Source of the DNA: Geobacteraceae bacterium
GTDB taxonomy: Bacteria > Desulfobacterota > Desulfuromonadia > Geobacterales > Pseudopelobacteraceae
Direction of reading: 5' to 3'
Assembly: GCA_025355325.1 (NCBI GenBank)
Contig: JANXZX010000221.1
Location: 1-51,498, forward strand
Length of the DNA: 51,498 nt
The position numbers and the translations under genes are program-made. Below are positions 4,529-24,028 of the stretch, piece by piece; positions within the stretch are counted from its first letter, which is position 1, and each line of letters opens with the position of its first letter. The notes under the pieces were generated by a model that did no database searches, had not been told where the DNA came from, and saw nothing but the letters and a program-made list of their open reading frames with translations.

Positions 4529-4533
4529 GCTGT

Positions 4534-6350: not shown

Positions 6351-6403
6351 ATAATCTCCCGGTTGGAATTGAATCAGACGGCTTTATTTTCAGTTTTGTG
6401 CCC

Positions 6404-7474: not shown

Positions 7475-7983
7475 TGGATTATATCCTCATTGAACAGGTG
7501 CTTTCCTTGACGCATTCGACGCATAAACACGTCTCCGCTCCGGGTACAGAAAAACAGTTTGCGACCGCGCAGTCCGCCGGTATCACGGGCGGAAATTGTC
7601 AGCCCAAACGACGCCAGCACCTCTTCCGCTTTTGCTATATTTTGTTCGCCGATGGTACGTTTTGAGGATGTATGTTCGCCGACAGCCAGAACCTGTGCTC
7701 CGCCAAACAGCTTGATTACCAGATCATTGCCGACATGATTTTCAGTCAATTTATCAAAAATATGCCGCAAAGCGGTATCAACATACCGCAGGTCGGCACC
7801 CTGCCGTCCATTCTCGGGCAGCATCGCATGACATATAGCGCCGAAACCGCTGGATGCAGAATAGATGGTTACTGCCACGCACGATCCCAAAACTGTTGAT
7901 ATCAGCATCGGCGTGCGGGTTACCAGCACCTCGCCCGGCTTGAGGTACATGTTGTGAGTATGTGAGGCAATAAGCTTCTTCAT
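7471..7983 (-). CDS. cheD: Chemoreceptor glutamine deamidase CheD (copy 2)
   Basis: The 170-residue second CheD has [11 protein letters not shown] with Cys35, CHAMLP with His52 and KLFGGAQ. As in copy 1, the position six before Cys is Ser (Ser29) and not Thr. The two copies are clearly diverged in sequence, so this is not a recent tandem duplication. It is translationally coupled to cheB (4-nt overlap). The ATG at 7983 has no recognisable Shine-Dalgarno: the upstream leader runs directly into a palindromic element (7991-8155) that appears to have replaced the natural 5' region. Confidence 0.92.
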
Positions 7984-7990
7984 ATAGGAT

Positions 7991-8155
7991 GAAGCTCTTG
8001 CAAAAGTATCAAAATCAGTCCCCCCTCCCTCGACGGGAGGGGGTTAGGGGGTGGGTGAAGTTGCAACATGCTAAATTTCATGGCAGTCTCCCCCCCACCC
8101 TAACCCTCCCCCGCAAGGGGGGAGGGGACTTAAATGGTTTTTTTGCAAGAAGCTC
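7991..8155. mobile_element. MITE-like palindromic element inside the chemotaxis operon
   Basis: About 165 bp form one imperfect palindrome. Outer ends TCTTGCAAAA (7996-8005) and TTTTGCAAGA (8141-8150) are perfect inverted repeats. Inside, CCCTCCC..GGGAGGGGGTTAGGGGGTGGG on the left is mirrored by CCCACCCTAACCCTCCCCC..GGGGAGGGG on the right around a centre of about 40 nt. There is no ORF. This has the form of a small non-autonomous element or extended repeat. It sits between cheR and cheD2 and abuts the cheD2 start codon. No clear target-site duplication was found. Confidence 0.65.
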
Positions 8156-8224
8156 AAATAATTAAAATTGATCAAAAGGCGAAAAACAATCCCGTTGTCC
8201 CTGCCCCCTGTACTTCATTTGGCA

Positions 8225-9091
8225 TCACTTCCGATACACTGTTGACGCAACAGCCTTAAAATCAACATCAAGGCCGCTCAACGTCTCGGAATGGCCGATA
8301 AACAGGTACCCGCCCGGCTTCAGCTGTTTATGAAATTTCCGCATCAGCGTCTGCTGGGTCGGTTTATCAAAGTAAATCACTACATTTCGGCAGAAGATAA
8401 TGTCCATCTTTTCGGAAATGCCAAAATCATCATCCATGAAGTTGATCCGCCGGAAGGACACAAGTGAGCGAACCTGCGGAGCAATGCGCACGAGGGATTT
8501 CGTTTTTTCCCGGCTGCGCATCAGATATTTTCTTTTGAAGTTCAGGGGAATTGGATCGGTTCTTTCTTCCGGATAGATGGCTGTTTTGGCGGTCTGCAAC
8601 ACCTGGGTACAAATGTCGGACGCCGTAATAGCCACCCGAAAATCAGGCATTCCGGCAGCAAACTCGGACAGCACCATCGCCATGGTATACGGTTCTTCTC
8701 CGGTCGAACAACCGGCGCTCCAGATTCGCACCGGTTCACGCACGGAATTTCCACGGCTGTCGAGAATAGCGGGCAATGCCGTCTTTACCAAAAAATCAAA
8801 ATGGGCAGGTTCGCGAAAGAAGTCCGTCTTGTTGGTGGTTACTACATCAATCAGATGAATGAGTTCAGACGCCCGGCCCTGCTGGCTGAAAACGAAATCA
8901 GCATACTCTTCAAACGAAGCGATAGAGTTGGCCTTCAGCCGTTTCTGAAGACGCGCCTCCAGCATGGTTTTCTTGACTGGCGGCATCTTGATGCCGGTAT
9001 GATCATATATAAAACCGCTGAACCGCTGGAACTCCCGATCAGAGAGTGTTGCCGGCAGGCGGGGTTTCATGCTGTCGCGGGGATTTGTCAC
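8225..9091 (-). CDS. cheR: Chemotaxis protein methyltransferase CheR
   Basis: CheR methylates chemoreceptor glutamates with S-adenosylmethionine. The 288-residue protein has the N-terminal helical CheR domain, NKTDFFRE, the SAM-binding segment IWSAGCSTGEEPYTMAM, and DIIFCRNVVIYFD. No TPR extension is present. The start is GTG 9091 with AAAGGA seven bases upstream. It lies 72 nt after cheW. The palindromic element follows its 3' end, before cheD2. Confidence 0.96.
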   Translation of the reverse strand: MTNPRDSMKPRLPATLSDREFQRFSGFIYDHTGIKMPPVKKTMLEARLQKRLKANSIASFEEYADFVFSQQGRASELIHLIDVVTTNKTDFFREPAHFDFLVKTALPAILDSRGNSVREPVRIWSAGCSTGEEPYTMAMVLSEFAAGMPDFRVAITASDICTQVLQTAKTAIYPEERTDPIPLNFKRKYLMRSREKTKSLVRIAPQVRSLVSFRRINFMDDDFGISEKMDIIFCRNVVIYFDKPTQQTLMRKFHKQLKPGGYLFIGHSETLSGLDVDFKAVASTVYRK

Positions 9092-9163
9092 TTCATTGTC
9101 CTTTCGTGATCAAAACCCATATTTGGCTGAAGAAACAAGAATCATGGAGCAGGAAGGCAAAAA

Positions 9164-9643
9164 TCATCCCTGCGTCAGGTCGATTAATTCATCCTGGGAA
9201 AAAACTTTGTCAATATCCAGGATCATCACAAAACGGCTGTCAACCTTGCCCATTCCCCTGATGAAGTCGGTATTCAGCTTGGTTCCTATATGCGGTGCCG
9301 CCTCAATGCTCTCCGGCTCCATTTCAACAACTTCCTGAACCGAATCAGCCAGGGCACCCAGCACCGTGGTATCACCGTCCATATTGATCTCCACCACGAT
9401 GATGCAGGTATTCACCGTCTGCTCGGTCTCACTCATACCGAATTTGAGCCGCATGTCAATAACCGGCACCACGCTGCCGCGCAGGTTGATAACGCCGCGC
9501 ATGAAATCAGGGGTCTGGGGGACTTTGGTTATATTTGTTATTTCGAGTATCTCGCGTACTTTCGCTACATCCAGGGCAAAGATCTCTTCATCAAGCTTAA
9601 AAGTCAGATATTGAACCGTTTCAGTTATTCCAGCGACACTCAT
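9164..9643 (-). CDS. cheW: Chemotaxis adaptor CheW
   Basis: The 159-residue single CheW domain (YLTFKLDEEIFALDVAKVREIL, GVINLRGSVVPVIDMRLKF) links the receptor tips to CheA in the signalling array. Length is typical. It lies between the MCP at 9699-11384 and cheR, with spacing of 55 and 72 nt, consistent with one operon. Confidence 0.95.
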   Translation of the reverse strand: MSVAGITETVQYLTFKLDEEIFALDVAKVREILEITNITKVPQTPDFMRGVINLRGSVVPVIDMRLKFGMSETEQTVNTCIIVVEINMDGDTTVLGALADSVQEVVEMEPESIEAAPHIGTKLNTDFIRGMGKVDSRFVMILDIDKVFSQDELIDLTQG

Positions 9644-9698
9644 AGAGGCTCCTTTATCAATAGTTTACGGAATATATCTTCCATTAACCCATTAACAA

Positions 9699-11384
9699 TC
9701 AATATTTTTCGAAATCGTCATCCATATGATCAGGTCCGGCGTGACCAAGCTCAAGATTAATGCCGCCACCCGGAGCCCGTTTAGTCACGGCGCTTTTTCC
9801 TTTAGCACCAGCATGGGCAATCTGAATCTTTTTCACCTGTTTTGCCGCCTGTTGACGCGGAGCGCGGGAATGCCCTCCCCCGTCGATTTTGAAGAAAGCA
9901 ACCGCATCACTCAACTGCTCGGCCTGACTGGAGAGTTCTTCCGAGGTTGAGGCCATCTCTTCAGAAGCCGAAGCATTCTGCTGGATAACCTGATCGAGCT
10001 GCTGAATCGCCTTGTTGATCTGCTCGGCGCCGGTATCCTGTTCCTTGCTGGAAGCGGTAATTTCCTGAACCAGTTCGGCGGTTTTCTGAATGTCCGGCAC
10101 CATCTTGGTCAGCATTTCGCCAGCCTGTTCGGCAATCGCCACACTACGGGTCGAAAGTCCGGATATTTCACCGGCGGCTGATTGGCTTCGTTCGGCAAGT
10201 TTACGCACTTCAGAGGCAACAACAGCGAAACCTTTGCCATGCTCACCGGCACGGGCAGCTTCAATAGCGGCGTTCAAAGCAAGCAGGTTGGTCTGACGGG
10301 CAATCTCTTCGATAATTGAGATCTTGGTGGCAATTTCCTTCATGGCGGCAACGGTCTCGATTACAGCCTTGCCACCCTCTTTGGCATCGACCGAACTCTT
10401 GATCGAGATTTTCTCAGTCTGCATGGCATTATCAGTGTTCTGGCGAATACTTGAGGCCATTTCTTCCATGCTGGAGGAGATCTCTTCGGCGCTGGCAGCC
10501 TGCTCCGTCGCACCCTGGCTCATCTGCTGGGCGGTGGCGGAAAGCTGCTGGCTGCCGGAAGAAACGTTGTCTGCTGCCGACATGACATCGCCGACGACAT
10601 GTTTCAGTTTATCAACCATGGCGGCAATTGCAGCCATCATCATGCCGGTTTCATCCTTGGATTTTGATTCGACCGTTATCGTGAGATCACCCTCAGCAAG
10701 GGCATTGGCAACACTGACCGCCTCGTTGATGGGACGCACGATGCCGCGCGTCAGGAATACTGCGGTAAAAATTGCGATAATCAGGGCTCCCCCGCCAAGA
10801 CCAAGCATTGTAGTGCGGGCAGATACATATTCTTTGAGTGCTTCATCAAAGCGCTTCTTGTTTCGTTCAATCTGGTAATCCTTAAGTTTGTCTATTTCGG
10901 TAATCCAGGCGCGAACTGCGGGACGCGCTTCCTTGTTCATAAGCGCCAACGCATCACTATCCTTGCCAGCCAAAGCCAGTTCAAGAACTTTGCTGTTGAG
11001 CGGTCGGGCTTTCTCAGTGGATTCCTTTACCTTGGCAATTTGTTCATGCCCTTTGGTGTCATCTTTTGAAGTCAGTTCTTCAAGTTTCTTTATTGATTCG
11101 TTATATATTTCCCGCTGGTCGCCAATACGCTTCTGGTACTCCGCCCTTTTGGAAAAATCACTATCGAGAAGGGCATTGCGCAAGTTAATTGAGACCTCCT
11201 GCACCGACTGTAGCATGTCACCCGCCATATCAATACGGACATTGTTGACCTTGACAATCCGTTCCAGGTTTTTCTGGATATCGGTCATGCCGCTCAACCC
11301 TTCCCAGATCAGAGCCACCATAATCACCAGCAACACACCAAAACCGAGCGTCATCCGTTTACCGATTTTCATATTTGCAAACAT
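9699..11384 (-). CDS. Methyl-accepting chemotaxis protein (4HB-type sensor)
   Basis: The 561-residue transmembrane receptor has TM1 at about residues 12-29, a periplasmic helical bundle of about 160 residues (4HB_MCP type), TM2 at about 192-213, a HAMP domain ([11 protein letters not shown]), and a cytoplasmic hairpin with the tip [17 protein letters not shown]. The protein ends in a flexible Lys/Ala/Gly-rich tail and [10 protein letters not shown]. The signalling domain and tail are nearly identical to those of the MCP at 18805-20490, while the sensor domains differ. That pattern suggests two inputs feeding one array. It lies 54 nt downstream of cheA. The ligand cannot be read from the sequence. 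Confidence 0.95.
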
Positions 11385-11438
11385 ACGTTCCCCCTTTGAA
11401 AAATTTTCCCTGATGAATGAACATCAAGTATTACGGGA

Positions 11439-13562
11439 CTATACTTCCGAATGCTCCAACTGTTCGATCGACTGCAACAGCACGCCCATGTCCAGGATCA
11501 ACGCTACCGTTCCGTCACCAAGAATTGTAGCCCCGGAGACACCTTTAACATCGCGATACATTTTACCAAGCGACTTGATAACGGTCTGATGCTCGCCCAC
11601 CACATGGTCAACCACAAAACCGACCTTTGTGCCATGGATATCGGCAATCACAATCTGCTCAATTTCAGGCCGTGCATCCTTTATGCAGAAATGTTGGCGC
11701 AGCGGAATATACGGAATAATGGCACCGCGAACATTTGCGAGGTTTCTGCCATGGGAATTTTTGATATCTTCGCGGGTCAGCTCGACGCACTCCTCAATCG
11801 CAGCCAGCGGCAGAACGAAATGGTCTTTGCCGATTTTGACCAGCAGGCTGTCGATGATCGCCAGCGTCAGAGGAATTTTCAGAGTAATAGTCGTGCCGGT
11901 TCCGCGGACGCTATCAACACTGATAGACCCGCGCAGCCCTTCAATGCCCCGCTTGACGACATCCATACCTACCCCGCGACCGGAAACGCTGGTTACTTTT
12001 GCGGCGGTGGAAAATCCGGGAGCAAAGATCTGGGCATAGATTTCCCTGTCAGAAACTTCGGCAGTCGCAGACAGCAAGCCTCTTTCAATAGCTTTGGCAC
12101 GGATGGCGTCGCGGTCGAGACCAGCGCCGTTGTCACGGATGGTGATCAATACGGAGTCTCCGGAGTGTTCAGCTCCCAGATAGACGATGCCGGTTGACGG
12201 TTTACCGGCTGCCCTTCGTGTTTCCGGCATTTCGATACCGTGATCGATACTGTTGCGGATGATATGTACCAGCGGATCGTTCAGTTTTTCGATGACGGTC
12301 TTGTCCAGCTCCGTTTCGGCACCGAATGTTTCCATTTCGATTTCTTTGCCGAGTTCATTGGAAAGATCGCGGACCAGACGCTTGAATTTACTGAAGGTAC
12401 TGCCGATCGGCAGCATGCGGATATTTAAGGCAGTGTCGCGCAATTCGTTGGTAAGGCGCTCGACTTCCTCGGAAATGGCTATGAAGGTGGAGTCACCTCC
12501 TGCCATTGAAACCTGAGAGAGGTGTGCCTGAACGGTTACCATTTCTCCAACCAGATTTATCAGTTGATCCAGCCGTTCAGCCGGAACGCGGATACTGGCA
12601 GCCGCTTCCTGCGGCGGAGCTTCACTGCGTTCCTTGCGCACGCTTTTAACGTGCTGCTGTTCAATCAGAGCCGACTGCACTTTTTCCGGCGAGACAATGC
12701 CTTGTTCAACGAGCAGTTCACCGAAGCGTTTTTGCAGCATCAGGACTTTTTGCATTTCAACCGGCGAGAGATCACCACGTTCGACAAGAATATCGCCCAG
12801 TTTTTTGTAACCCTGTTCGCGGTCGATCAGGCCGCTGCTGTCAATCAGTTCGATCTTGAGTTCGCAGTCGTCCTCAACGAAGATAAAGACGTCTTTGATG
12901 GCATCTTCACCACGGGTGGTTGTCAGGATGATATCCCAGTAGATATGGCAGTTTTCCGGAACCAGTTCGTCAAGCGTCGGGATGTCTTCAAATTGGGCAA
13001 CAACATGGGCTGTGCCCAATTCGCGGAGCTCATTGATTAACGAAATGGGGTTGGTGCCGCACATAAGGATCGACGGGATGGGACGGAAGCGGATGCGCCA
13101 GGTGCATTCATTGGCCAGATCGTCTCCGGACAGGTTCGGAAGGTCTATGGCCGGCACATCACTGGAGCCTTTCTGGGGCAGATCCGATTTCGGAACCAGC
13201 TGCCGCAGGCCGGCTATAATTTCGTCCCCTTCGCTGCGATCAACTTCTTCGCCGGTGGGAATATTCAGAAGATAAAAAATGTGATCGCGGGATTTGAGAG
13301 TCAGGTCAAGAAGGGGTTTGGTGACAGTCATCTTGCCGTTGCGCACCATATCAAAGACAGTCTCGACTTCGTGGGTAAAGCCGGCTATTTCGTCAAAGCC
13401 GAACATGGCTCCGGATCCCTTGATGGTGTGCATGGCACGGAAGACACGGTTAATCAGGTCGTTGTCATCAGGAGTTTCTTCCAGATCAAGCAGGGATGTT
13501 TCCAGTTCGGCGAGCAGCTCTCCGGCCTCTTCCCTATACGTTGCAATGGCTTGTTCCATCAT
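11439..13562 (-). CDS. cheA: Chemotaxis histidine kinase CheA
   Basis: The 707-residue protein has an N-terminal HPt domain with His45 in MHTIKGSGAMFGF. A P2-like receiver-binding region follows at about 155-240 (WRIRFRPIPSILMCGTNPI). The dimerisation and ATPase domains come next (NLVGEMVTVQAHL; HIIRNSIDHGIE; DNGAGLD; GRGVGMDVV), then a C-terminal CheW-like domain. Between P2 and the kinase core lie two tandem 20-residue motifs: LGDILVERG..SP.EM..VL (255-274) and FGELLVEQG..SPEKVQSAL (280-299). They resemble the (L/F)GE(L/I)L(V)..G.(I/L)(S/T) helical repeats of secretion-ATPase N-termini. The start is the first of two ATGs. It is 4 nt downstream of the cheY stop. Confidence 0.97.
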   Translation of the reverse strand: MMEQAIATYREEAGELLAELETSLLDLEETPDDNDLINRVFRAMHTIKGSGAMFGFDEIAGFTHEVETVFDMVRNGKMTVTKPLLDLTLKSRDHIFYLLNIPTGEEVDRSEGDEIIAGLRQLVPKSDLPQKGSSDVPAIDLPNLSGDDLANECTWRIRFRPIPSILMCGTNPISLINELRELGTAHVVAQFEDIPTLDELVPENCHIYWDIILTTTRGEDAIKDVFIFVEDDCELKIELIDSSGLIDREQGYKKLGDILVERGDLSPVEMQKVLMLQKRFGELLVEQGIVSPEKVQSALIEQQHVKSVRKERSEAPPQEAAASIRVPAERLDQLINLVGEMVTVQAHLSQVSMAGGDSTFIAISEEVERLTNELRDTALNIRMLPIGSTFSKFKRLVRDLSNELGKEIEMETFGAETELDKTVIEKLNDPLVHIIRNSIDHGIEMPETRRAAGKPSTGIVYLGAEHSGDSVLITIRDNGAGLDRDAIRAKAIERGLLSATAEVSDREIYAQIFAPGFSTAAKVTSVSGRGVGMDVVKRGIEGLRGSISVDSVRGTGTTITLKIPLTLAIIDSLLVKIGKDHFVLPLAAIEECVELTREDIKNSHGRNLANVRGAIIPYIPLRQHFCIKDARPEIEQIVIADIHGTKVGFVVDHVVGEHQTVIKSLGKMYRDVKGVSGATILGDGTVALILDMGVLLQSIEQLEHSEV

Positions 13563-13566
13563 GGTT

Positions 13567-13932
13567 TCACCCCAGTACCTTCTTGATCACCGCGATTAGT
13601 TGCTCAGGCTTGAAAGGCTTGACGATCCAGCCGGTGGCGCCTGCGCTTTTACCTTCAATTTTCTTGGTGTCATTCGATTCCGTTGTCAGCATGACAATAG
13701 GAATGAATTTGTTCAGGGTCCCGGCGCGAACTCCCTTGATGAGGCCGATACCGTCCATGTTAGGCATGTTAAGGTCGGTAAGCAGCATATCCACTTTCTG
13801 CGAACCTAACTTGGTGAGAGCATCACGACCATCAACCGCCTCAATTACGTCATAGCCGTTCTGTTTTAGCGTGAATGCCACCATCTGCCGGACACTGGCC
13901 GAGTCATCAGCCGTCATGATTACTTTTGCCAT
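13567..13932 (-). CDS. cheY: CheY single-domain response regulator
   Basis: The 121-residue receiver starts at ATG 13932 (AKVIMTADDSASV) with GGAGGTG correctly spaced upstream. It has Asp-Asp near residues 8-9, phospho-acceptor Asp in MLLTDLNMPNMDG, Thr in VMLTTES and Lys in IVKPFKP. It is the presumed CheA phosphotransfer target; the output is not evident because no flagellar motor genes are present. Its ATG overlaps the stop of the STAS gene (TAATG), and cheA follows after 4 nt. Confidence 0.95.
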   Translation of the reverse strand: MAKVIMTADDSASVRQMVAFTLKQNGYDVIEAVDGRDALTKLGSQKVDMLLTDLNMPNMDGIGLIKGVRAGTLNKFIPIVMLTTESNDTKKIEGKSAGATGWIVKPFKPEQLIAVIKKVLG

Positions 13933-14279
13933 TACGAAGCACCTCCAAACCAAATACAGGTAGAATTGTTGTTATGTTTACAGATTGTGCTGCGCTCAGC
14001 GCCGCTGCTGGTGATGATATTTGCCAGAGCCTGCGGAAACGGGCCATGATAAGTAAATATCTTTCCGGTCTGTGCCGCACTCCGGCAGGCAGAACAGAGC
14101 ACCTGCAAGCCGGTGATGTCGATTTCAACAGCCGGCTCAAATTCAATCGCAACGACGTGCGACGCATCCAACGACTCGCGGACAACACGAGAAAAGTCGG
14201 CGGCGGTTTCAATCGTAAGGCGGTCACCACTGGTAACGGTTATTTCACCGTTCTCGCGGACAAAACTGTTAAGCGGCAT
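13932..14279 (-). CDS. STAS-domain protein of the chemotaxis cluster
   Basis: The 115-residue protein is a single STAS (anti-anti-sigma type) domain. The helix-start motif is EIDITGLQVL, where Thr takes the position of the phosphorylatable Ser of SpoIIAA-type proteins. It is coupled to cheY by a 1-nt overlap and follows the double-tip MCP-like gene by 12 nt. From memory, STAS proteins upstream of cheY-cheA also occur in Rhizobium-type clusters. Its partner could be CheA, the MCP-like protein or an anti-sigma kinase. No kinase of the RsbW type is in the window. Confidence 0.88.
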   Translation of the reverse strand: MPLNSFVRENGEITVTSGDRLTIETAADFSRVVRESLDASHVVAIEFEPAVEIDITGLQVLCSACRSAAQTGKIFTYHGPFPQALANIITSSGAERSTICKHNNNSTCIWFGGAS

Positions 14280-14291
14280 GTCTGGCTCCTG

Positions 14292-16115
14292 TTAGAACAA
14301 ATCTACATTATCACCGAATTCCGAATCATCAACGACATCGACTTTTGCGGCACTCTGAACGACAAGCGACTCCTGACCGCTCCGTTTGCGGGCCAGGGCT
14401 TCGTGAATATGCCGCTCACTCTCCATCGTGTAATGTTCTTCCATGTGTCGCAGGTTTTCCTTGAACTCGCTGCTGGCCGGTTCAATCTGGCGCGACTGGG
14501 CAACTATCCGCTCAAGATCGCCAAGTACGCCATCAGCCATAATTTTTGTACGTTCATGTACATCAACTCCGGCGGTCGCCTCTTCAACATCCTGCGTCAG
14601 ACTGAAAACCTGCTCGTTCAGATCAGACAGGACCGAAAGCATCTCGGCGTTCATCGGGCCCATAGTCTGCAGAATTTCCGACAATTCATCCTGCATTGTG
14701 GAGATGCGTACACCAAGCTGATCCTCTTCATTTTCCACATCGGACAGCAGATGCTCCGTTACCCCATGAATTTCAGTAAGTGTCACGGCAACCGAATCTG
14801 TCTGCCGCACAGCTTCGTCCGAGAGTCGTTTAATCGCTTCAGCCAGCACCCCCAAAGCAGCCCCCTCCGGTCCGGTAAGCGCCGCCTTGATCTGAGAATT
14901 GAGGGCAATCAGATCAATTTCAGATCCGATGGCCTCAATATCGGTAACGAATGTGGCTATTTCATCAATCGTCTGGGCCACTTTTTTCATAGTGGCAGAC
15001 ATATTCCGGTCGGCCAGGGCGCATGAGGTCAGCACGGACGTTACCGCAGTCATTCCCTGGCTCATTACCTCAACGAATGACGAACCGGACGAACCGGTTG
15101 ACCCGGTAATCGCAGCTGATTCGTGGGCAACAACAGCCTGCTTCCTGGCTATGTCACGCAAATTGTCAACAATGGCACAGACTGCCGAGTACAATTCGCC
15201 GGAAGCAAAGCGGAGTTGAGCCTCCTGAAGTTCGCAGACGTCACCCGTTTCGACGATCACCCTCCGCAAGGCATTATCAACGGCTTCAGATGTGTTTGCA
15301 GTGCCAAAATCGACGCTCAGGCGTTCCAGAGCTTCGACAACATGCTCAAGCTGCTGACGGGTCATATCGTGCATCTGCATGGAGGTAACGACATCGCTGA
15401 TACTGTTGGTTACATCGACGGAAATTGTTGCGGCGGTGGTGCCAAACTGCGTACACCGTTCGTTGACCGACACCAGTTCATGCAGGTTGGCTCCGGTGTT
15501 ACGAAGAATAGTCTTTACCTTGGCATCCTGATCAACCCCGGTCGAATGGACCGAGGTCAGATTGTCTGCAATCATGTTCATCAGCAGTTGCCTGTGAGAC
15601 AAAATCGCGGCCGACTTCTCGTTAACCTGATGAGACAAATTTTCCACATCCATGGCAAGGTTGACAAATCCGCTGCCGAGCTCGCCCAGACGCGCACTTT
15701 CAATTTTGGTGGATATGCTCAACATACGTAGTGTCTTGTTCATCTTCTGGAAACCTTCAAGCGGTTCGGAAAGTTTATCCAGAAGGACTTGAACATTCTC
15801 CAGAGTACCGCAACTGTCACTACTGCGTGACCGGGCATTGTCCAGATATCCTTCCATATCCGCCATAATTTGCCGCAACCGGGATGTCAGCGTAACAACA
15901 GCATCCCCGGATACGACCGTCACCAGCTGATTAGCCATTCGGGAGATATCAGCCGAGCGTTGATAAAATGATTGCAACCTGGAACCGATCTGAAGAAACT
16001 CATCTTCCGTCGTACCGGCCATCCGCCGCAGTGTATCAATGGCAGGAACAACGATGTCCCGCCATCCAGCCAACTGATTATAATTCCCGCTCGGGAAACT
16101 ATTGTTAAATGTCAT
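14292..16115 (-). CDS. Cytosolic MCP-like coiled-coil protein with two signalling tips
   Basis: The 607-residue protein has no transmembrane segment or HAMP and is almost entirely helical. Two segments align residue by residue with the MCP hairpin tip. The first, about 128-161, has MLSISTKIESARLGE then GSGF, and keeps the Glu, Arg and Glu that in E. coli receptors contact CheA/CheW and the trimer. The second, about 400-432, has DLIALNSQIKAALTGPEG and has lost all three (Lys, Leu, Pro). The spacing suggests two hairpins in tandem in one chain. The C-terminus is charged and flexible. It is followed after 12 nt by the STAS gene, so it is likely a soluble receptor or array scaffold for this CheA. 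A sensory domain is not recognisable. Confidence 0.8.
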   Translation of the reverse strand: MTFNNSFPSGNYNQLAGWRDIVVPAIDTLRRMAGTTEDEFLQIGSRLQSFYQRSADISRMANQLVTVVSGDAVVTLTSRLRQIMADMEGYLDNARSRSSDSCGTLENVQVLLDKLSEPLEGFQKMNKTLRMLSISTKIESARLGELGSGFVNLAMDVENLSHQVNEKSAAILSHRQLLMNMIADNLTSVHSTGVDQDAKVKTILRNTGANLHELVSVNERCTQFGTTAATISVDVTNSISDVVTSMQMHDMTRQQLEHVVEALERLSVDFGTANTSEAVDNALRRVIVETGDVCELQEAQLRFASGELYSAVCAIVDNLRDIARKQAVVAHESAAITGSTGSSGSSFVEVMSQGMTAVTSVLTSCALADRNMSATMKKVAQTIDEIATFVTDIEAIGSEIDLIALNSQIKAALTGPEGAALGVLAEAIKRLSDEAVRQTDSVAVTLTEIHGVTEHLLSDVENEEDQLGVRISTMQDELSEILQTMGPMNAEMLSVLSDLNEQVFSLTQDVEEATAGVDVHERTKIMADGVLGDLERIVAQSRQIEPASSEFKENLRHMEEHYTMESERHIHEALARKRSGQESLVVQSAAKVDVVDDSEFGDNVDLF

Positions 16116-16159
16116 GGGGTATCCCTACTCCTGAAAAAAAGAAACGAGTGCCTGGCACA

Positions 16160-16558
16160 TCACTGTACCAGCTGGAGCTTGCGCAACTCATTGGCAAGCT
16201 TGTGCCTGCTGAGCGGTTTTACGATGTATGCATCGGCCTCACACTCGTTAAACGACTTGATCACCGTATGCGGATCATCCAGAGCAGTGGTCATGATCAC
16301 CTTGACCGCAAGATTATGAGGAATCGCCATCTTTCTCTCAAGGGTGCGGATACACTGAAGCGCCTCAAGCCCGTCAACGACCGGCATCATAATATCCATA
16401 AAGATAACATCGTAGGGACGCTTTGACTCATGCGCCAGCACAAAGGAGTCTATCGCCTCCTGACCGTTCACGGCAATATCGCAGTCAAATTGGGAAGAAA
16501 GCAGCTCCTTCAGGATTCGACGGGACAACAAATGGTCTTCTGCAATCAAACATTTCAC
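16160..16558 (-). CDS. CheY-like single-domain receiver
   Basis: The 132-residue receiver has CLIAEDHLLSRR, phospho-acceptor Asp in VIFMDIMMPVVDG, Thr in VIMTTAL and Lys in YIVKPLS. The insertion KRPYD before the Asp strand and the overall pattern are those of receivers that pair with hybrid or REC-kinases. It starts at GTG 16558 with AAAGGAG eight bases upstream. It is 16 nt downstream of the REC-kinase gene, so it is the likely phosphate acceptor for that kinase. Confidence 0.93.
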   Translation of the reverse strand: MKCLIAEDHLLSRRILKELLSSQFDCDIAVNGQEAIDSFVLAHESKRPYDVIFMDIMMPVVDGLEALQCIRTLERKMAIPHNLAVKVIMTTALDDPHTVIKSFNECEADAYIVKPLSRHKLANELRKLQLVQ

Positions 16559-16574
16559 AAGCGGTCTCCTTTAA

Positions 16575-17789
16575 TCACGGAGCGATTATTTTCAAATTCA
16601 GGGTAAAGCAACTGCCCCCCCCCGGCACATTCTCAGCACGCAGTTTACCATTGAGAAGCAGGGCGTTTTTCATGGCTATGGCAAGGCCTAACCCTACACC
16701 TTCATATCTGCGGGTAAAGGATCCATCCCCCTGAACAAAGGGCTCAAAGATCCGCTCCTCCATTCCGGCAGGGATTCCGATGCCGGTGTCGGACACCGCA
16801 AACAACAGTTCACTTTCACCACCGGATTCCAGATTGGACACATCCACAGTCACACCGCCCTGCCCGGTAAATTTAAGTGCATTGCCCAGCAGAATATCCA
16901 GTAGCCTAGAAAGCTGCTCTTTGTCGGTCCAGAGACGGTCAGGTACATCAGTGGCAATATTCAAAACCAGTGAAAGCCCCTTTTTCCTGAAATCAGAAAA
17001 ATACCGGGTGACAAGGCCATTCAATAGTGCCGACAGATCGATCAGGTCGTACCGTGCGGTGCTGGAACCGGCACCGGTACTGCTGTTGAATGCCAGTAAT
17101 TTATCAATCAGCGCCAGCATATTGTCCGCCGACTGACGCGCCATGGAAAGAAACTCTGCGGCTGCTCCGGTCAGATTCTCTTCAGACAATAGTTCGAGAG
17201 AACCAATAACGCCATTCATCGGAGTACGCATTTCATGAGATATGGTAGACATAAAGGCGCTTTTGTCGGTGGCAGCCTGCTGAAGCATCGTCCTGGCAAA
17301 ATCAAGTTCGGCCATGGATTCTTTCAGTTCGGCAGTTCTTTGGGCCACCGTTTCTTCCAGCTCGGCACGATAATTTTTTTCCATTTTCTGCAGTTTTGAA
17401 TAGTTGACCGCCCGCGCAATAACTTTTCTGAGGTAGTCGAAATCGAACGGCTTGCAGATGAAGTCAAATGCGCCGTTTTTAATGGCATTGACTGCCATTT
17501 GCAGTTGCGCATGACCGGTCATCAGAATAACCGGAATATCCGGCCAGTAATCGTGAACCCGACCCAGGAAAACAATCCCGTCCTCGCCCGGCATCATGAC
17601 GTCACTGATAACTGCATCAAATTGTTCCACCGCCATCAATTTGCACGCTTCTGCTACATTTGAAGCACAGGAGGTACGGAAGTTGTCCCTCTGAAGACAG
17701 AGTGAAATCATCTGGCGGATCTCAGGTTCATCATCCAGGATCAGAATATTGGGGTTGTGCAGTTCTGCGGATTGTGCGGTTTCAGTCAT
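16575..17789 (-). CDS. Receiver-histidine kinase
   Basis: The 404-residue protein starts at ATG 17789 (TETAQS), chosen because GAGGA lies correctly upstream; a TTG 18 nt earlier is less likely. Order: receiver at about 10-130 (ILILDDEPE, Asp in AVISDVMMPGEDG, CKPFD), a coiled coil, HisKA with the acceptor His in FMSTISHEMRTPMNGVIG, and HATPase (LLGNALKFT, DTGIGIP, GVGLGLAI). It is soluble. The N-terminal receiver suggests control by another kinase, and the following single receiver is the probable output. Its leader begins in a palindromic repeat (17804-17880). Confidence 0.93.
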   Translation of the reverse strand: MTETAQSAELHNPNILILDDEPEIRQMISLCLQRDNFRTSCASNVAEACKLMAVEQFDAVISDVMMPGEDGIVFLGRVHDYWPDIPVILMTGHAQLQMAVNAIKNGAFDFICKPFDFDYLRKVIARAVNYSKLQKMEKNYRAELEETVAQRTAELKESMAELDFARTMLQQAATDKSAFMSTISHEMRTPMNGVIGSLELLSEENLTGAAAEFLSMARQSADNMLALIDKLLAFNSSTGAGSSTARYDLIDLSALLNGLVTRYFSDFRKKGLSLVLNIATDVPDRLWTDKEQLSRLLDILLGNALKFTGQGGVTVDVSNLESGGESELLFAVSDTGIGIPAGMEERIFEPFVQGDGSFTRRYEGVGLGLAIAMKNALLLNGKLRAENVPGGGSCFTLNLKIIAP

Positions 17790-17803
17790 GGCTTGATCCT
17801 CAA

Positions 17804-17880
17804 ACAACCCCTCCCCGCTCCCCTTATCAGGGGAGAGCCTTTAACCTCCCCCCTGATAAGGGGGGATTGAGGGGGGTTGG
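17804..17880. repeat. Palindromic intergenic repeat (copy 3)
   Basis: The inverted repeat has arms CAACCCCTCCCC..CCCCTTATCAGGGG and CCCCTGATAAGGGG..GGGGGGTTGG. Each arm also folds on itself. It lies between the P460-type gene and the REC-kinase start, ending within about 10 nt of the kinase ribosome site. It could act as a partial terminator or RNA-stability stem inside the operon. Confidence 0.7.
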
Positions 17881-17893
17881 TTTTAAGAAACCT

Positions 17894-18358
17894 CTACTTG
17901 AAATCTTTCTTTGTCGAAATCACAAAATCCTTCTGTGCTGCATCCTTCTGATGACACCCGAAACAGGTAGTTACCGGATCAAGGCCGCTCGGCTTGCCAT
18001 CTGCGCCAAACGAGGCAAAAAGCCACCCGCCGGTTGCTTTCTGACGCTTATCCTTCTGCATCAGCACAACCATGTTTTTTGGACCATCAACAGCAGGGTT
18101 ATCCTTGATATTGAAAAATTCAACAACAATGCGGCTTCCCTCGGCAAATTTGTTATCAGCCAGATATCCGCTCTGCGCCTTTTTGTCGGCGTAGATATAG
18201 TGTATACCATAAAAGAGCGAGCTTTTGTCAGTGACAATTTTACGCTCACTCTTCTTCCACGCGGAATACCCTTTCGGAAGAGACGGAGAAGCCGCCTCGG
18301 AAACGACTGCGGAAAAACAAAAAGACAAAGCAGACAAGAAAACAAAAAATGATTTCAT
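17894..18358 (-). CDS. Periplasmic cytochrome P460-family c-type haem protein
   Basis: The 154-residue product begins with a signal peptide (about residues 1-23, ending SEAA) and has one c-type haem site, CFGCH, near the C-terminus. The fold-level features (PKGYSAWKKSE; beta-rich middle; haem site near the end followed by KDFVIS) are those of the cytochrome P460/c'-beta family, members of which bind NO or oxidise hydroxylamine. Whether this one has the Lys-haem crosslink cannot be told. ATG 18358 with GGAG upstream. It lies between an orphan DHp gene and a REC-kinase in the chemotaxis cluster, so it may supply a redox or NO input. Confidence 0.78.
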   Translation of the reverse strand: MKSFFVFLSALSFCFSAVVSEAASPSLPKGYSAWKKSERKIVTDKSSLFYGIHYIYADKKAQSGYLADNKFAEGSRIVVEFFNIKDNPAVDGPKNMVVLMQKDKRQKATGGWLFASFGADGKPSGLDPVTTCFGCHQKDAAQKDFVISTKKDFK

Positions 18359-18397
18359 TATAAAGCTCCAGCAACAGAATTGTATACGTGGACTATA

Positions 18398-18736
18398 TCA
18401 ATTATTAGTTTTTTTGTCACGTGCTGATGCCTTTGCAGTGCCCAATTTTTGCGGTTCACCGGCACAAGATGTATGCTTCTCGGATTGGCTGGCCTGCATG
18501 AGCTTGTCCGACAAAACCGCCGCATGTTCCGCCGAAGTACGAATGAGCGCAACACACTGCAGGAGTTCAGCGTTAGCAGGATCATCCCGGTCGATCAAAG
18601 AACAGGCACCCATAACCGTTGTCAGGATGTTATTGAAATCATCCGCCATTCCGCCCGCCAGGGTGGTAATTGATTCCGGCATCACATGCAATGGCGGGCC
18701 TGAAGCTCGTCTCTGTTTTGTTTGCTTGTTTTTCAT
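18398..18736 (-). CDS. Orphan DHp-like (HisKA) protein with Asp at the His position
   Basis: The 112-residue protein matches only the dimerisation/phospho-acceptor hairpin of histidine kinases: TTLAGGMADDFNNILTTVMG, where kinases read AGGIAHDFNN. The acceptor His is Asp32 (codon GAT). A second helix follows (about 58-85) and then a Lys/Ala-rich tail; there is no ATPase domain. It may be a kinase fragment in decay, or a small helical partner that heterodimerises with or inhibits a kinase of the cluster. No ribosome site precedes ATG 18736; instead an inverted repeat TTAATC-TCT-GATTAA lies 4 nt upstream (18740-18754), so translation may be weak or coupled. Confidence 0.6.
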   Translation of the reverse strand: MKNKQTKQRRASGPPLHVMPESITTLAGGMADDFNNILTTVMGACSLIDRDDPANAELLQCVALIRTSAEHAAVLSDKLMQASQSEKHTSCAGEPQKLGTAKASARDKKTNN

Positions 18737-18804
18737 GGCTTAATCAGAGATTAAAGCAATGCGCAAAGGCTTTGTGAGCGTTTGGCACTGCTTTTACCCC
18801 GCCT

Positions 18805-20490
18805 CTAGAATTTTTCAAAATCATCGTCCATATGATCGGGACCGGCCTGACCAAGCTGCAGGTTTATACCGCCGCCAGGACGCTTGGCCTGTGGCCGGGC
18901 TGTCGCAGCACTCTTGGCATGGGCAATCTGAACCTTATGTGTCGGCTTGCGGGCAGCACTCGCAGTTGCGCGGCGCCCACCCTGGCTGCCGATATTGAAG
19001 AAACTGATCGAATCCTGTAGTTGTTCTGCCTGGCTTGAGAGTTCTTCCGAGGTAGAGGCCATCTCTTCGGAAGCCGAGGCGTTCTGCTGGATAACTTGAT
19101 CAAGCTGCTGAATCGCCTTGTTGATCTGTTCGGCACCGGTATCCTGTTCCTTGCTGGATGCGGTGATTTCCTGTACCAGTTCGGCGGTTTTCTGGATATC
19201 CGGCACCATCTTGGTCAGCATCTCACCTGCCTGCTCGGCGATCGCCACACTGCGGGTGGAAAGAGTAGATATCTCCCCCGCAGCTGATTGGCTCCGCTCG
19301 GCCAGCTTACGGACTTCAGAGGCAACGACGGCAAAGCCTTTGCCATGCTCACCGGCACGGGCCGCTTCAATAGCAGCATTCAGCGCCAAAAGATTGGTCT
19401 GTCGGGCAATCTCTTCAATAATGCTGATTTTGGTGGCGATCTCTTTCATTGCAGCGACCGTTTCAACTACCGCCTTGCCGCCATCTCTGGCATCGACGGA
19501 ACTTTTGATGGAGATCTTCTCCGTCTGCATCGCATTGTCAGTGTTCTGACGGATACTGGAAGCCATTTCTTCCATGCTGGAGGAAATTTCTTCAGCACTG
19601 GCGGCCTGTTCGGTGGCACCTTGACTCATCTGCTGGGCGGTGGCGGAAAGTTCCTGACTGCCCGAGGCGACATTATCGGCGGCAGCGGTGACTTCACCGA
19701 CAATACTGCTCAGCTTGGCAACCATTTCGTTGAGAGCCTGTGCCAACATGCCAACTTCGTCCTTCTGGTCCAGGTCGATCTTCTGGGTCAGGTCACCTGC
19801 AGCAACCGCCTGCGCAAAAGTCACCCCCTTACGGAGCGGACTGCTGATGATGTTGGATATTACCAAGCCAAACAAAATTGCGAGGATGATGCCCGCCACG
19901 GTAAAGCCGATCATCAGATTGCGTGCGTTGGTAGCAACAGTCCCGTTTTCTTCTTCGGTCAACTTTGCCTGTTTGAGCTTGGCGTCCTGTAGTTTGTCAA
20001 GTAATTCCTGCTCATGGAATGCGGCCTTTTTGCCAATGGTGGAGAGGAGAGCCATTGCTTCGGCATCCTTGTCCGCCATCGCCAACGGCGTCACCTGATC
20101 GATTACCTGAGCATATTCCTCACGACTCTTTTTGAATTCTTCGAACAGCTTACGCCCTTCATCGGTCAGGATAGTCTTTTCAAAGGCCGCAGACTTTTCC
20201 GATATTACCGCTCGCAGTTTTTTGATCGTTTCAAGAGCTGTCTGCTTTTCTGTCGCGTTATTGGTCTCCACAAGATCACGCATATTGATGCGAATACGTT
20301 GGAACGAAGTGGACATCTCTCCCAGATCACTTATAGGTATTGTTATTTTGACATACATCTTTTCACCGTTGTCATCGAGTACCTTAAGCTTCATGATCCC
20401 GACTACACCAATAGTTGCTGCAATCATTGCCACAACAATAAATGCCGACAAAAGCTTTACACTGATCCTAAGGTCATAGAACCATTTCAT
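18805..20490 (-). CDS. Methyl-accepting chemotaxis protein (4HB-type sensor)
   Basis: The 561-residue receptor has TM1 at about 11-33, a periplasmic four-helix-bundle type sensor, TM2 at about 190-212, HAMP, and a hairpin with [17 protein letters not shown]. The tail ends [10 protein letters not shown]. From about residue 270 to the end it is almost identical in protein, but not in codons, to the MCP at 9699-11384. ATG 20490 has GGAGG upstream. It is first after a 219-nt regulatory gap containing a -24/-12 element and phased repeats, so expression of this gene, and perhaps the whole downstream cluster, is probably sigma-54 dependent. Confidence 0.95.
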
Positions 20491-20529
20491 AACAAATTCC
20501 TCCGTTTCTTATTGAATTGAGGAAAATGT

Positions 20530-20547
20530 TTACATTAAGTGTGCCAA
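20530..20547 (-). promoter_or_regulatory. Candidate sigma-54 (-24/-12) promoter of the MCP/chemotaxis cluster
   Basis: On the minus strand TTGGCAC begins at 20547, with GG at 20545-20544. A-CTTA-ATGTA follows, placing the second element exactly at the -12 spacing. The -24 box is a near-perfect match to TGGCAC; the -12 box is ATGT where consensus is TTGC. The implied transcript starts near 20520, giving a leader of about 30 nt with GGAGG. Confidence 0.55.
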
Positions 20548-20638
20548 GGCAGAACAATGCGGGTTAGAAGTGAAAAGAGGTGGGATTTTGAAGAATTATC
20601 CGAATAGATTCGTTGAAAATACGGAATGGCATAGTGCA

Positions 20639-20721
20639 ACATGTTACACATTTATGCGTCACACGTTACATATAAAACGATACATGTTACACATCTACTA
20701 CTGTAAAAATTATACTGTTAC
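20639..20721. promoter_or_regulatory. Phased upstream activator repeats (ACAyGTTACAyAT)
   Basis: Three same-orientation 13-bp sites occur: ACATGTTACACAT (20639-20651), ACACGTTACATAT (20661-20673) and ACATGTTACACAT (20682-20694), at 22 and 21 nt spacing, two helical turns each. A weaker fourth GTTAC core lies at 20717, three turns further. They sit about 120-200 nt upstream of the proposed sigma-54 start, the usual position of enhancer-binding-protein sites. The gene for such an activator is 1.5 kb away. Confidence 0.6.
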
Positions 20722-22167
20722 CTTTCGCAACGACAGTTTATGCTCACGCATAAAGGCCTGCTCAATATCGGTAGCCTTAACATTCAAACCGGTCATCGAC
20801 AGATAGCGGAGTCCGCCTTCGATACTGTTTTCTATTACACTAAAAGCCCCATCCTTCTGTTCGTGTATCATTTCGGTCGTATCACCAAGAGTAAGTTGCA
20901 CGTTTTCATACAGTACGGCTTTTGCATTGATTTTGGCATTGGCAGAGGGATCTGTGGTATCTCGTATAGCCAGAATACTCACGGTCAGATCTGCGCACGC
21001 CCTCTGTATCTCTGCGGCCTCAGACGGTGTATGAGGTTCTTTCGCTTTATTCTGGAGATCTGTAAGTTCAGCGAACAGTTGTTCCAATTGACCGACAACA
21101 CGGTAATCGGCTCCGGCGTGGAGGCGGGTATGTACGGAAGCGCCAGAACCGAGCTTTCTCGCCTCTATGCCGCCAAGCGCAATATATGAACCGCCGGAAA
21201 TAGCACCCTTGTCGGCAACGATCCGGCCAAGCGTCCTGATGGTGCAGTTATGGATTTCGACGTCAACGATCACATCACCGGCGCACTCTACCACGGCATC
21301 GTGAATAAAGTGAGCCCGCAGTGTCCCGCCGCAGACGATGCGCCCCCTTTCCTGGCCATCCATGCCGCAGAAAGCAATATCGCCGTCACTGATTATGTTA
21401 CAGGCGCCGATATTTCCGGTGACGGTTATCCCCTTGGTCGATGTAACGTCGAAATTATCCAGGACATCGCCACGCACTTCCGTAACGCCTTTAAAATCTA
21501 TCGAACCGACCCTGAAGTTGACATCTCCCTTGACAATATACTCTTCCTCAACGGAGATCTCCCCGGCAGATTGGCAGAAGCGTCCCGTTGCGGCAGCAAT
21601 CAGGAGAGTGCCGTTCTCCTCGGTACGGATATTCTTACCGATAGTTACTTTCAGAGGCTTGCCAGCCTGAGGAGCTATCGTCATACCCGTGATATCCCTG
21701 CCCGGCGTGCCTGCTCCGGCAGGAATAATGCGGCCGATTTCTTCGCCGGTCGCAACGTTGACGAACGTTTGTACAATATGCATGTCAACATCAGTCGAAA
21801 CTTCTTCTCCGGCATGAACTGCCGCCGAAGAATTCACCGACAGCGCGATGCATTCATCTTCTCCTGCAACAGGCGGTGTTCCGGCTACCAGCAGTACATT
21901 AACCTGCTGTTTTCCGGCGGCAGCCTTGACAAGAAAATCATCAAACGCCTCTTGATCAATCCCTTCACGAACGTTGTACTGTTTCAGATAGGTGAGCAGC
22001 TCATCACGGGTTATCATGGAGCCCTGATTATGGGGAATGTAACTGCACCGGCACTCCAGACGGGTATCCGGTATTTTCAGATACAGACTGAAACCAAGTT
22101 TTTTAATTTCACTCCCGCCGGTGGCGGGCTCGGCATCAGTCTGCGGCGAATCAAGTTGATCTGTCAT
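20710..22167 (-). CDS. FapA/DUF342 family protein
   Basis: The 485-residue soluble protein has the DUF342/FapA layout: an N-terminal region, the conserved GTPGRDITGMTI block near 160, then a long stretch of short beta repeats (GDVNFRVGSIDFKGVTEVRGDV; GGTLRAHFIHDAV), predicted right-handed beta helix, and a C-terminal coiled coil. FapA proteins (flagellar assembly protein A) are linked to flagellar or polar-complex assembly. Here it is 26 nt downstream of the sigma-54 activator gene and upstream of an MCP, with no flagellar genes nearby, so a polar-organising or array-associated role is possible. ATG 22167. Confidence 0.85.
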   Translation of the reverse strand: MTDQLDSPQTDAEPATGGSEIKKLGFSLYLKIPDTRLECRCSYIPHNQGSMITRDELLTYLKQYNVREGIDQEAFDDFLVKAAAGKQQVNVLLVAGTPPVAGEDECIALSVNSSAAVHAGEEVSTDVDMHIVQTFVNVATGEEIGRIIPAGAGTPGRDITGMTIAPQAGKPLKVTIGKNIRTEENGTLLIAAATGRFCQSAGEISVEEEYIVKGDVNFRVGSIDFKGVTEVRGDVLDNFDVTSTKGITVTGNIGACNIISDGDIAFCGMDGQERGRIVCGGTLRAHFIHDAVVECAGDVIVDVEIHNCTIRTLGRIVADKGAISGGSYIALGGIEARKLGSGASVHTRLHAGADYRVVGQLEQLFAELTDLQNKAKEPHTPSEAAEIQRACADLTVSILAIRDTTDPSANAKINAKAVLYENVQLTLGDTTEMIHEQKDGAFSVIENSIEGGLRYLSMTGLNVKATDIEQAFMREHKLSLRKVTV

Positions 22168-22193: not shown

Positions 22194-23918
22194 TTACCCG
22201 GCCTCTCCAAGCTGTCGATAAATCGTCATACGGCTGATCCCGAGCAGCCGCGCAGCACGGGCCTTGTTGCCGCCGGAAGCTGCCAGCGCTTCGACCAGAG
22301 ACATCCCTGCAGATGCGACAGACAATGACCGCACCAGTGGTTTCAGCGCAGAGGCAGTCTCGGGCACTCTGACCAGCAAATCCTGCGGCAGATCATCGAC
22401 TGTTACTATGGAGTTTCTGCAAACAATAAAGGCATGCTCAATGGCATGTTCCAGTTCACGCACATTTCCCGGCCAACTGTAGGCACGAAAGACTGTCAAG
22501 ACATCGTCCGAGACGGCAATTATCGCCTTGGAGAGTTTGCCGTTAAACTTGGTAATGAAATGTGCCACCAGTAATTCAAGATCATCATGGCGGTCTCTCA
22601 ACGGCGGCAAATCAAGACGAACGACATTCAGACGATAATAGAGATCCTGGCGAAAATTACCCTGGCTTACTTTCTCGGTCAGACTTTGATTGGTGGCGGC
22701 AACAATTCGCACATCAACTTTCACCGGCGTTGAATCACCGACACGTTCGAATTCACTTTCCTGAAGCACACGCAACAGCCGCATCTGGATCGCCGGGGAA
22801 ATGTCTCCGATTTCGTCCAGAAAGAGTGTGCCGCCGTGTGCCTTCTGAAAACGTCCGATCTTGTCAGAAATTGCTCCGGTAAAAGCGCCCCTGACGTGAC
22901 CAAACAGCTCACTCTCCAACAGATGCTCCGACAGTGCCGAACAGTTAACCTTCACAAACGGCCCCCGTGAACGGACTCCGCAACCGTGAAGCGCCGCTGC
23001 AACCAGCTCCTTGCCGGTGCCACTCTCACCGTTAATCAGGACGGTCGTGGGAACACCTGCCAACGACTCGATCATTGTGTAAACCCGCTGCATCGGTTCC
23101 GATGAACCGATAATTCCGTGAAATCTCCCCCGTCGCAGTAATGACCGCTCCAGCTCGACCAGTTCGGTTTCATCACGAACAACCGCCACCGCACCACTGG
23201 TAGTGCCATCCGATTCTGCCACCGGTGTCGCACTCAAGCTGACAATACGAAGCTTCCCCGAAGAGGTGCGGCACTCGACTCGGCGGAGCTCACGAGGAGT
23301 GGAACTCCCAAGTGCTTCCTGTAACGCTGCCCGGCATACACCGCCACAACCAAAATCAATAGTTGAAGCATCAGTGCCGATCTGATCATGCCGGTATCCA
23401 CAGAATTGCTCTGCCTTAGAATTAAAATGAGCCAGCCGCCCATGCATATCAATCATGACAATGCCGTCGGTGACCGTCCGGAAAATGGCGTCAAGATTAG
23501 CACGGTACCGTTCCCGTTCGTCGCTCAGCGCCTTCATGCTCAATGCATGACGGGTCACCGCGATTAACGTTTCATAGCGTACCGGCTTGGTAATATAGTC
23601 AAATGCCCCCAAGTGAACCGCTTCGACAGCCGATGCGACCTGCGGAAAACCGGTGAACATGACAACCTGGGTAGAAGGCGCAGATTTTTTTATTGTGCGC
23701 AGCAGATCAAGGCCACTCACTCCGTCGGCCAGCATGATGTCGATAAACGCCAGATCGAAACGGGAGTTCTCTATCATTTCCAAGGCTTCCTCAAGCCGGG
23801 AAGCGGACTCAACCTGGTATCCCTCTTTTTTGAGGAGCATTCCCAGGGTAAAACAAATCCCTTCTTCATCATCGACAAGCAGGATGCGGTACAGCGGTTG
23901 CGGTATCGGCACAGTCAT
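22194..23918 (-). CDS. Sigma-54-dependent response regulator (REC-PAS-AAA+-Fis HTH)
   Basis: NtrC-family activator. Order: receiver at the N-terminus (RILLVDDEEG, Asp in LAFIDIMLADGVSG, TKPVR); a PAS domain carrying several cysteines (FCGYR, GCGGVC, VECR); an AAA+ domain with Walker A GESGTGKE, the sigma-54-contacting GAFTGA loop, Walker B GGTLFLDEIGD and the arginine-finger region; and a Fis-type helix-turn-helix (NKARAARLLGISRMTIYRQL). All catalytic motifs are intact. The start is taken at ATG 23918 (MTVPIPQ); an in-frame GTG at 23954 is the alternative, and neither has a good ribosome site. It is followed by the FapA gene, and its likely binding sites lie at 20639-20721. Confidence 0.93.
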   Translation of the reverse strand: MTVPIPQPLYRILLVDDEEGICFTLGMLLKKEGYQVESASRLEEALEMIENSRFDLAFIDIMLADGVSGLDLLRTIKKSAPSTQVVMFTGFPQVASAVEAVHLGAFDYITKPVRYETLIAVTRHALSMKALSDERERYRANLDAIFRTVTDGIVMIDMHGRLAHFNSKAEQFCGYRHDQIGTDASTIDFGCGGVCRAALQEALGSSTPRELRRVECRTSSGKLRIVSLSATPVAESDGTTSGAVAVVRDETELVELERSLLRRGRFHGIIGSSEPMQRVYTMIESLAGVPTTVLINGESGTGKELVAAALHGCGVRSRGPFVKVNCSALSEHLLESELFGHVRGAFTGAISDKIGRFQKAHGGTLFLDEIGDISPAIQMRLLRVLQESEFERVGDSTPVKVDVRIVAATNQSLTEKVSQGNFRQDLYYRLNVVRLDLPPLRDRHDDLELLVAHFITKFNGKLSKAIIAVSDDVLTVFRAYSWPGNVRELEHAIEHAFIVCRNSIVTVDDLPQDLLVRVPETASALKPLVRSLSVASAGMSLVEALAASGGNKARAARLLGISRMTIYRQLGEAG

Positions 23919-24028
23919 TACCTCGTTGGTCTGCTGATTCAGGCATACTGTCACTGTTCACGTACAAACTTATATATAGTATAATTTCGCCGTTACGCAA
24001 AATAATTATATTAAAATCGGCATCAATA

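Follow-up and report, generated by a model that had tools for sequence, protein, structure and literature searches.

Bacteria carry many activators of the bEBP type, and most of these have no known site. In NtrC-type systems, a bEBP with a GAFTGA-bearing AAA+ domain and a Fis-type HTH acts through a UAS on a sigma-54 promoter with a -24/-12 element, and the dyad sites lie approximately 100–170 nt upstream. As the accessible parts of the following reports describe it, CbrB of Pseudomonas putida has three subsites spaced onto one side of the DNA, with half-sites TGTTAC and GTAACA (PMC6296734), and the Fis-type bEBP motifs of Desulfovibrio vulgaris have TGT and ACA halves with spacers of 9, 11 or 12, the similarity of motifs not always mirroring that of the DNA-binding domains (PMC4641369). 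Response-regulator motifs are mostly palindromic (PMC3333781), and HTH residues of LuxO and binding by NmpR have been reported (PMC11407668, PMC6211767). For Geobacter, some che clusters have predicted sigma-54 -24/-12 elements, and regulatory elements specific to che genes were described as yet to be found (PMC2577667). The RpoN consensus of Geobacter sulfurreducens is TTGGCACGGTTTTTGCT (PMC2725144).

Here, we analyze a chemosensory locus in a window of 51,498 nt (the whole stretch of DNA under analysis), which has in common with NtrC-type systems the GAFTGA-bearing AAA+ activator with Fis-type HTH, the upstream dyad sites and the -24/-12 element, and departs from them in its dyad (TGT-N8-ACA with a CATG centre, in three copies two turns apart), in an activator with an added PAS domain, in having a chemosensory operon as target and in GT at -12. 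It shares with CbrB the bEBP, the three one-side subsites and the half-sites, but the CbrB subsites are described as separate forward and reverse hexamers, whereas here two halves abut as a 14-bp dyad, and CbrB has 61 ChIP targets compared with one array found in the genome here (PMC6296734). The halves are also those of Desulfovibrio vulgaris, with a spacer of 8 in the present case and, unlike in the accessible part of that report, one helix residue that tracks one base (PMC4641369). The part of the Geobacter che paper available to us names no activator or enhancer (PMC2577667); both are proposed here. The bEBP/sigma-54 mechanism is classical, and the residue-base rule is the part that we did not find in print: among the matches listed from the open-access literature, no helix-to-site rule for bEBPs was recognised by title or start of abstract, and no open-access paper was found for the exact dyad sequences.

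We propose, with a probability of about 90%, that 20531–20691 is a bEBP-driven sigma-54 promoter region, at which the activator encoded at 22194–23954 would bind three dyads and from which the operon would start near 20520. The minus strand holds, in order, the activator gene, a fapA-like gene (20710–22167, Pfam FapA and FapA_N, stop codon at 20710–20712) that separates activator and enhancer in the clade of the window, an intergenic region (20491–20709) and 17 same-strand genes down to 4040. The first of these encodes an MCP (ATG at 20490, with a Shine-Dalgarno-like GGAGG at 20499–20503), followed by a HisKA-only protein, cytochrome P460, a hybrid kinase (16575–17807), a CheY-like protein, an MCP, a STAS protein, a CheY-like protein, CheA, an MCP, CheW, CheR, CheD, CheB, a CheW-receiver protein, a kinase and CheD. 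The gene map thus bears out the 17-gene chemotaxis cluster of the original prediction, and the genes at 4040–20490 presumably form one transcript. The predicted self-contained nature of the circuit is less well supported, the same genome having rpoN on a different contig (one Sigma54_DBD match, 212.8 bits). A GAFTGA activator encoded two genes upstream had also been predicted, and both Pfam and motif letters agree: the domains are receiver, PAS, AAA+ and C-terminal Fis-type HTH (Response_reg 92.3 bits, Sigma54_activat 232.9 bits, HTH_8), GAFTGA is intact at residues 356–361, and the letters of Walker A and B, of the acidic pocket (LVDDEE) and of the phospho-acceptor Asp (FIDIM) are present. 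Judged by its sequence, the protein has the features of a bEBP response regulator, namely receiver, AAA+ domain with GAFTGA and Fis HTH. Its recognition helix is GISRMTIYRQ, with Met after the invariant Arg. When the helix is profile-aligned with that of E. coli Fis, the Arg of GINRGT, which we take to contact a conserved guanine, falls opposite the invariant Arg of SR-X, and the Gly after it falls opposite X.

For comparison, 40 loci around activator or fapA homologues were taken from relatives, oriented and their genes mapped. Promoter and dyad counts cover 30 regions, that is, the window and 29 of these loci; the other 11 (L056–L058 and L071–L078) were left out because their DNA does not hold activator, enhancer and the same che order together, and L072–L078 and others among them have no such promoter array. 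A common order is activator, often fapA, the intergenic region, cheW, MCP, HisKA-only protein, P460, hybrid kinase, CheY-like protein, MCP, STAS and CheA. Except in L048 and L053, the mapped loci have the activator gene just upstream of the array, either directly or separated from it by fapA, and the gap from activator or fapA to cheW is 957 nt in L040 and 1126 nt in L068. Conservation in orthologous loci had been set beforehand as one test that could refute the prediction; promoter and dyads occur together in 28 of the 30 regions.

The promoter element, TTGGCACACTTAATGTA (GG-N10-GT, minus strand, 20531–20547), scores 11 of 13 consensus positions. It has the form TTGGCAC-N5-ATGTA, in which TTGGCAC and the spacing match the sigma-54 consensus and -12 is GT instead of GC; the letters lie as predicted, and the comparison supports a sigma-54-type promoter. 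With a threshold of at least 10 of 13 positions, the element is present in 28 of 30 intergenic regions and absent from L048 (174 nt) and L053 (155 nt), both short regions. The -12 had been called weak: it is GT, but with TGTA in 27 of the 28 promoters, window included, and TGCT in L063 alone, GT belongs to this operon as such instead of reflecting decay. The distance of 30 nt to the gene holds for the predicted start near 20520 but not for the element, which ends 40 nt before the ATG. No conserved IHF site was seen between enhancer and promoter, the best candidates matching 5–8 of 9 positions of the consensus at scattered places, without a shuffle control.

Upstream of the element, the three predicted 13-bp sites are there to the letter, with ACATGTTACACAT, ACACGTTACATAT and ACATGTTACACAT starting at 20639, 20661 and 20682 (spacing 22 and 21 nt). 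Their reading as same-direction 13-mers, however, had to be replaced, since relatives have perfect inverted repeats: the conserved unit is the 14-bp TGTAACATGTTACA, which is found, two turns apart, in L041, L046, L055, L060 and L061. The repeats in the window are three degenerate copies of this dyad, 21–22 nt apart on the minus strand: dyad a, TGTAACATGTATCG (20678–20691, 11 of 14 positions), placed by orthologous dyads at the same spacing, and, by dyad scoring, dyads b, TGTAACGTGTGACG (20657–20670, 11 of 14), and c, TGTAACATGTTGCA (20635–20648, 13 of 14), the last ending 87 nt before the -24/-12 element. Having 4, 4 and 6 of 7 pairs, they are among the more degenerate of all regions, which is why they look like direct repeats. 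A fourth GTTAC (20717–20721) does lie 31 nt further on, in the last codons of the fapA coding sequence, but as a site it has no counterpart in relatives; it scores 5 of 10 core positions, and GTAAC stands at that place in none of 14 fapA-bearing relatives with called dyads (L040 not covered), so it was rejected as a fourth phased site.

When TGT, CATG and ACA are used for scoring, there are 81 dyads in the 30 regions compared with 8.4 in dinucleotide shuffles; 4 of the 81 overlap the -24 element, and L053 has none. Adjacent dyads are 20–23 nt apart in 39 of 47 pairs (L048 and L053 left out), and the prediction that the repeats lie on one helix face, two turns from site to site, is supported by this comparison. 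The phase test further left out L039, L042 and L055, in which the array is more than 200 nt away (291–346 nt from the promoter). In 19 of the remaining 25 regions the nearest dyad starts 100–102 or 110–114 nt before the -24 element, two classes about one turn apart that fit a helical face; a called dyad is less than 80 nt away in two regions. Enhancer-promoter periodicity has an R of 0.65 at 10.5 bp and 0.72 near 12, and, given so wide a peak and the relatedness of the loci, a helical phase between enhancer and promoter is only suggested.

Of 58 genomes, nine have the strict double dyad, at one place each and every time before this operon (eight assigned by gene maps and the one in G002 by reading), and the reversed-pattern control has 0 matches. 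The genome of the window has a single place within one mismatch of the dyad, namely dyad c of the array, and at up to two mismatches there are 8 matches versus 11 in the reversed-pattern control; looser sites may lie elsewhere. Autoregulation of the activator through the same dyad thus finds no support. TGTAACATGTNACA is present in 13 of the 58 genomes, before this operon but for one extra place (G018:C31, L203). At approximately 1500–1540 of this locus, which is not part of the mapped che operon, there is a second dyad pair, TGTAACATGTTACA and TGTAATATGTTACA, for which a simple pattern gave no promoter.

The dyads change together with the recognition helix. ISR-M-T goes with TGTAAC in 19 loci, loosely, with base 4 being A in 71 of 108 half-sites, T in 20, C in 15 and G in 2. 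ISR-R-T goes with TGTG[AC]C (5 loci, G in 20 of 24), VSR-P-T with TGTAAT or TGTAAC (3 loci, A in 12 of 12) and VTR-L-T with TGTATC (1 locus, A in 6 of 6). G027 has Met-type and Arg-type activators and G022 has Met-type and Pro-type ones, each with its own dyad kind. With a phylum-wide homologue search added, the set came to 158 loci and 150 distinct activators. The stretch read was the 600 nt that follow the activator gene, or fapA if that intervenes; it contains a dyad for 73 activators and none for 77. Counting only strict dyads (TGTN8ACA with 6 or 7 of 7 pairs), there are 23 in 68.0 kb of 600-nt flanks of the activator gene versus 13 in 859.1 kb elsewhere in the loci for the 71 homologues L088–L158, among which L089, L098 and L123 repeat contigs of relatives already included. 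A dyad within 200 nt of the stop codon was found in 45 of 117 loci (L088 and up), compared with 0 of 117 in a control of equal length from the coding sequence of these loci and 2.0 in shuffles.

Strict dyads are present in 54 loci, and in these G occupies base 4 of 76 of 76 half-sites next to Arg or Lys activators and of 0 of 74 next to activators with other residues; in a looser dyad set the counts are 105 of 114 and 4 of 130. Since neither the half-sites of one dyad nor related loci count as independent, we built a tree without the HTH from 72 loci. The residue class changed at least 14 times, and across 8 independent supported pairs the base followed it in 7.7 on average and went against it in none (median p 0.0078). 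Even the close pair L268/L269 differs both in helix residue and in base. None of the 36 activators with Ser, Thr, Val or Ile has a dyad in the 150-activator set, and a relaxed search of 40 dyad-less activators with a residue other than R, K, M, L, P or Q gave other TG-CA dyads in 2. This covariation makes the encoded activator the likely binder of the dyads, and the repeats are very probably the sites through which the neighbouring activator switches on the 17-gene chemosensory operon.

The residue-base rule was then written down before 74 further loci were taken from a class-wide search, leaving 71 after removal of 3 duplicates. A strict dyad is present in 30 of these 71 homologues (coding control 0 of 71), and 41 have no dyad in the stretch read; together with the 77 of 150 above, this means that the adjacent location is common, not universal. 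Base 4 is G in 54 of 56 half-sites for Arg or Lys versus 3 of 16 for others. Of the 30 dyad loci, 28 are less than 80% identical to any training locus, and without the other two (L304, L306) the counts are 50 of 52 versus 3 of 16; without L366–L370, which are new loci of genomes already searched, they are 54 of 56 versus 3 of 12. The exceptions are L301 (Arg), in which one of two overlapping-register dyads has C, and L310 and L365 (Ser), with 3 G of 6. In a combined tree of 84 loci, L301 is the only locus whose majority base does not fit its residue class, a tie in L365 being counted as not G, and across 7 supported independent pairs the base followed the residue class in 6.8 on average and went against it in none (median p 0.016).

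Taken as a readable code, which we consider probable, these patterns would have residue X of R-X-T-[ILV]-Y-R contact base 4 of the TGT-N8-ACA half-sites, with its neighbours tuning bases 5 and 6. Arg and Lys, for which reading G is chemically ordinary, would read G; Met, Pro, Leu, Trp and mostly Gln would read A; and Cys would read C, with TGTC in L214 and again in the held-out L302 and L307. As for bases 5 and 6, TGTAAT accompanies Pro in separate lineages (L068, L070 and L259, then the held-out L343), TGTAGC accompanies Trp in two (L130, then the held-out L366 and L367) and TGTGGC accompanies Asp-Arg-Lys. Helices with the last triplet stand next to TGTGGC half-sites in L093, L124, L320, L328 and L335, a hint that the residue two before X may read base 5. 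If the code is true, a Met-to-Arg change in GISRMTIYRQ would shift the preference from TGTAACATGTTACA to TGTGACATGTCACA, that is, from TGTAAC to TGTGAC half-sites. Since the enhancer often lies right after the activator stop codon, enhancers and targets could be predicted from genome sequence alone, and a residue-to-base rule could assign sites to many uncharacterised activators. In the present case, enhancer, promoter and activator of one conserved che cluster can be named together.

Of the alternatives, the one we rate highest, although still improbable, accepts the enhancer and has most transcription of the operon start from a different promoter, the sigma-54 promoter being weak or dormant, as its GT at -12 would indicate. 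GT indeed departs from the RpoN consensus, as given in the available part of the Geobacter sulfurreducens study (PMC2725144), but the element is kept with GT in 27 of 28 promoters, and 8 of 26 strong -24/-12-like sites in the genome likewise have TGT (reversed-pattern control 5). A competing sigma-70-like promoter is not apparent either: such sites in 19800–22000 are at shuffle level (3 versus 3.2) and all on the opposite strand. Slightly less probable is that the dyads are operators of another regulator, for example a repressor, and that the neighbouring bEBP acts elsewhere. TGT-ACA dyads are common as regulator sites, and fapA separates the activator gene from the array in the window; yet on independent branches the dyad type shifts whenever the neighbouring activator has another type of helix, and dyads adjoin the gene in distant bEBP homologues.

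That the repeats arose by chance, or form a tandem array with no regulatory role, can practically be dismissed. Only the degenerate copies of the window favour it, and the window alone is no basis for judging chance, because the pattern was derived from it: at up to two mismatches the 13-mer pattern has 3 matches in 51 kb where 2.6 are expected, and these three fall within 56 nt and fit the degenerate pattern exactly. The conservation of promoter and dyads, which 28 of 30 regions have ahead of the orthologous operon, refutes this reading, and the protein-site covariation also stands against it.

As far as sequences can tell, then, the elements, their conservation and their covariation with the protein point to the bEBP-driven promoter. 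We infer that activator dimers would bind the three dyads, centred at approximately -121, -143 and -164 from the predicted start, where the two-turn spacing would line them up on one DNA face and let an AAA+ oligomer assemble. DNA looping would then bring the GAFTGA loop to the sigma-54 polymerase held on TTGGCAC-N5-ATGTA, and its remodelling would start transcription of the chemosensory operon near 20520. Specificity would come in part from the position that follows the invariant Arg in the recognition helix, the Met here being paired with TGTAAC half-sites. The activating signal may arrive through the hybrid kinase of the operon, a candidate partner of the activator that would close a positive loop.

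The loci also differ in smaller ways. In L044 (G032:C247), the activator gene is in two overlapping pieces in different frames, and promoter and dyads are kept. The fapA-like gene between activator and enhancer is found in one clade and is absent there from L059–L070, so it was gained or lost without breaking the activator-enhancer pairing. The first gene after the promoter is cheW in many relatives; the window has no cheW at that place (20491–20709), and by eye L046 and L049 seem to retain just a shortened cheW-like frame. Within the operon, 18398–18736 encodes a 112-residue protein with a HisKA domain only and no ATPase, perhaps a phosphotransfer or dimerisation piece, which is also present in at least 18 of the 40 mapped loci, many of which end early, at 49–70% identity. 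The chemosensory operon also includes a cytochrome P460 domain protein (17894–18358), found in at least 13 of the 40 mapped loci at 77–87% identity.
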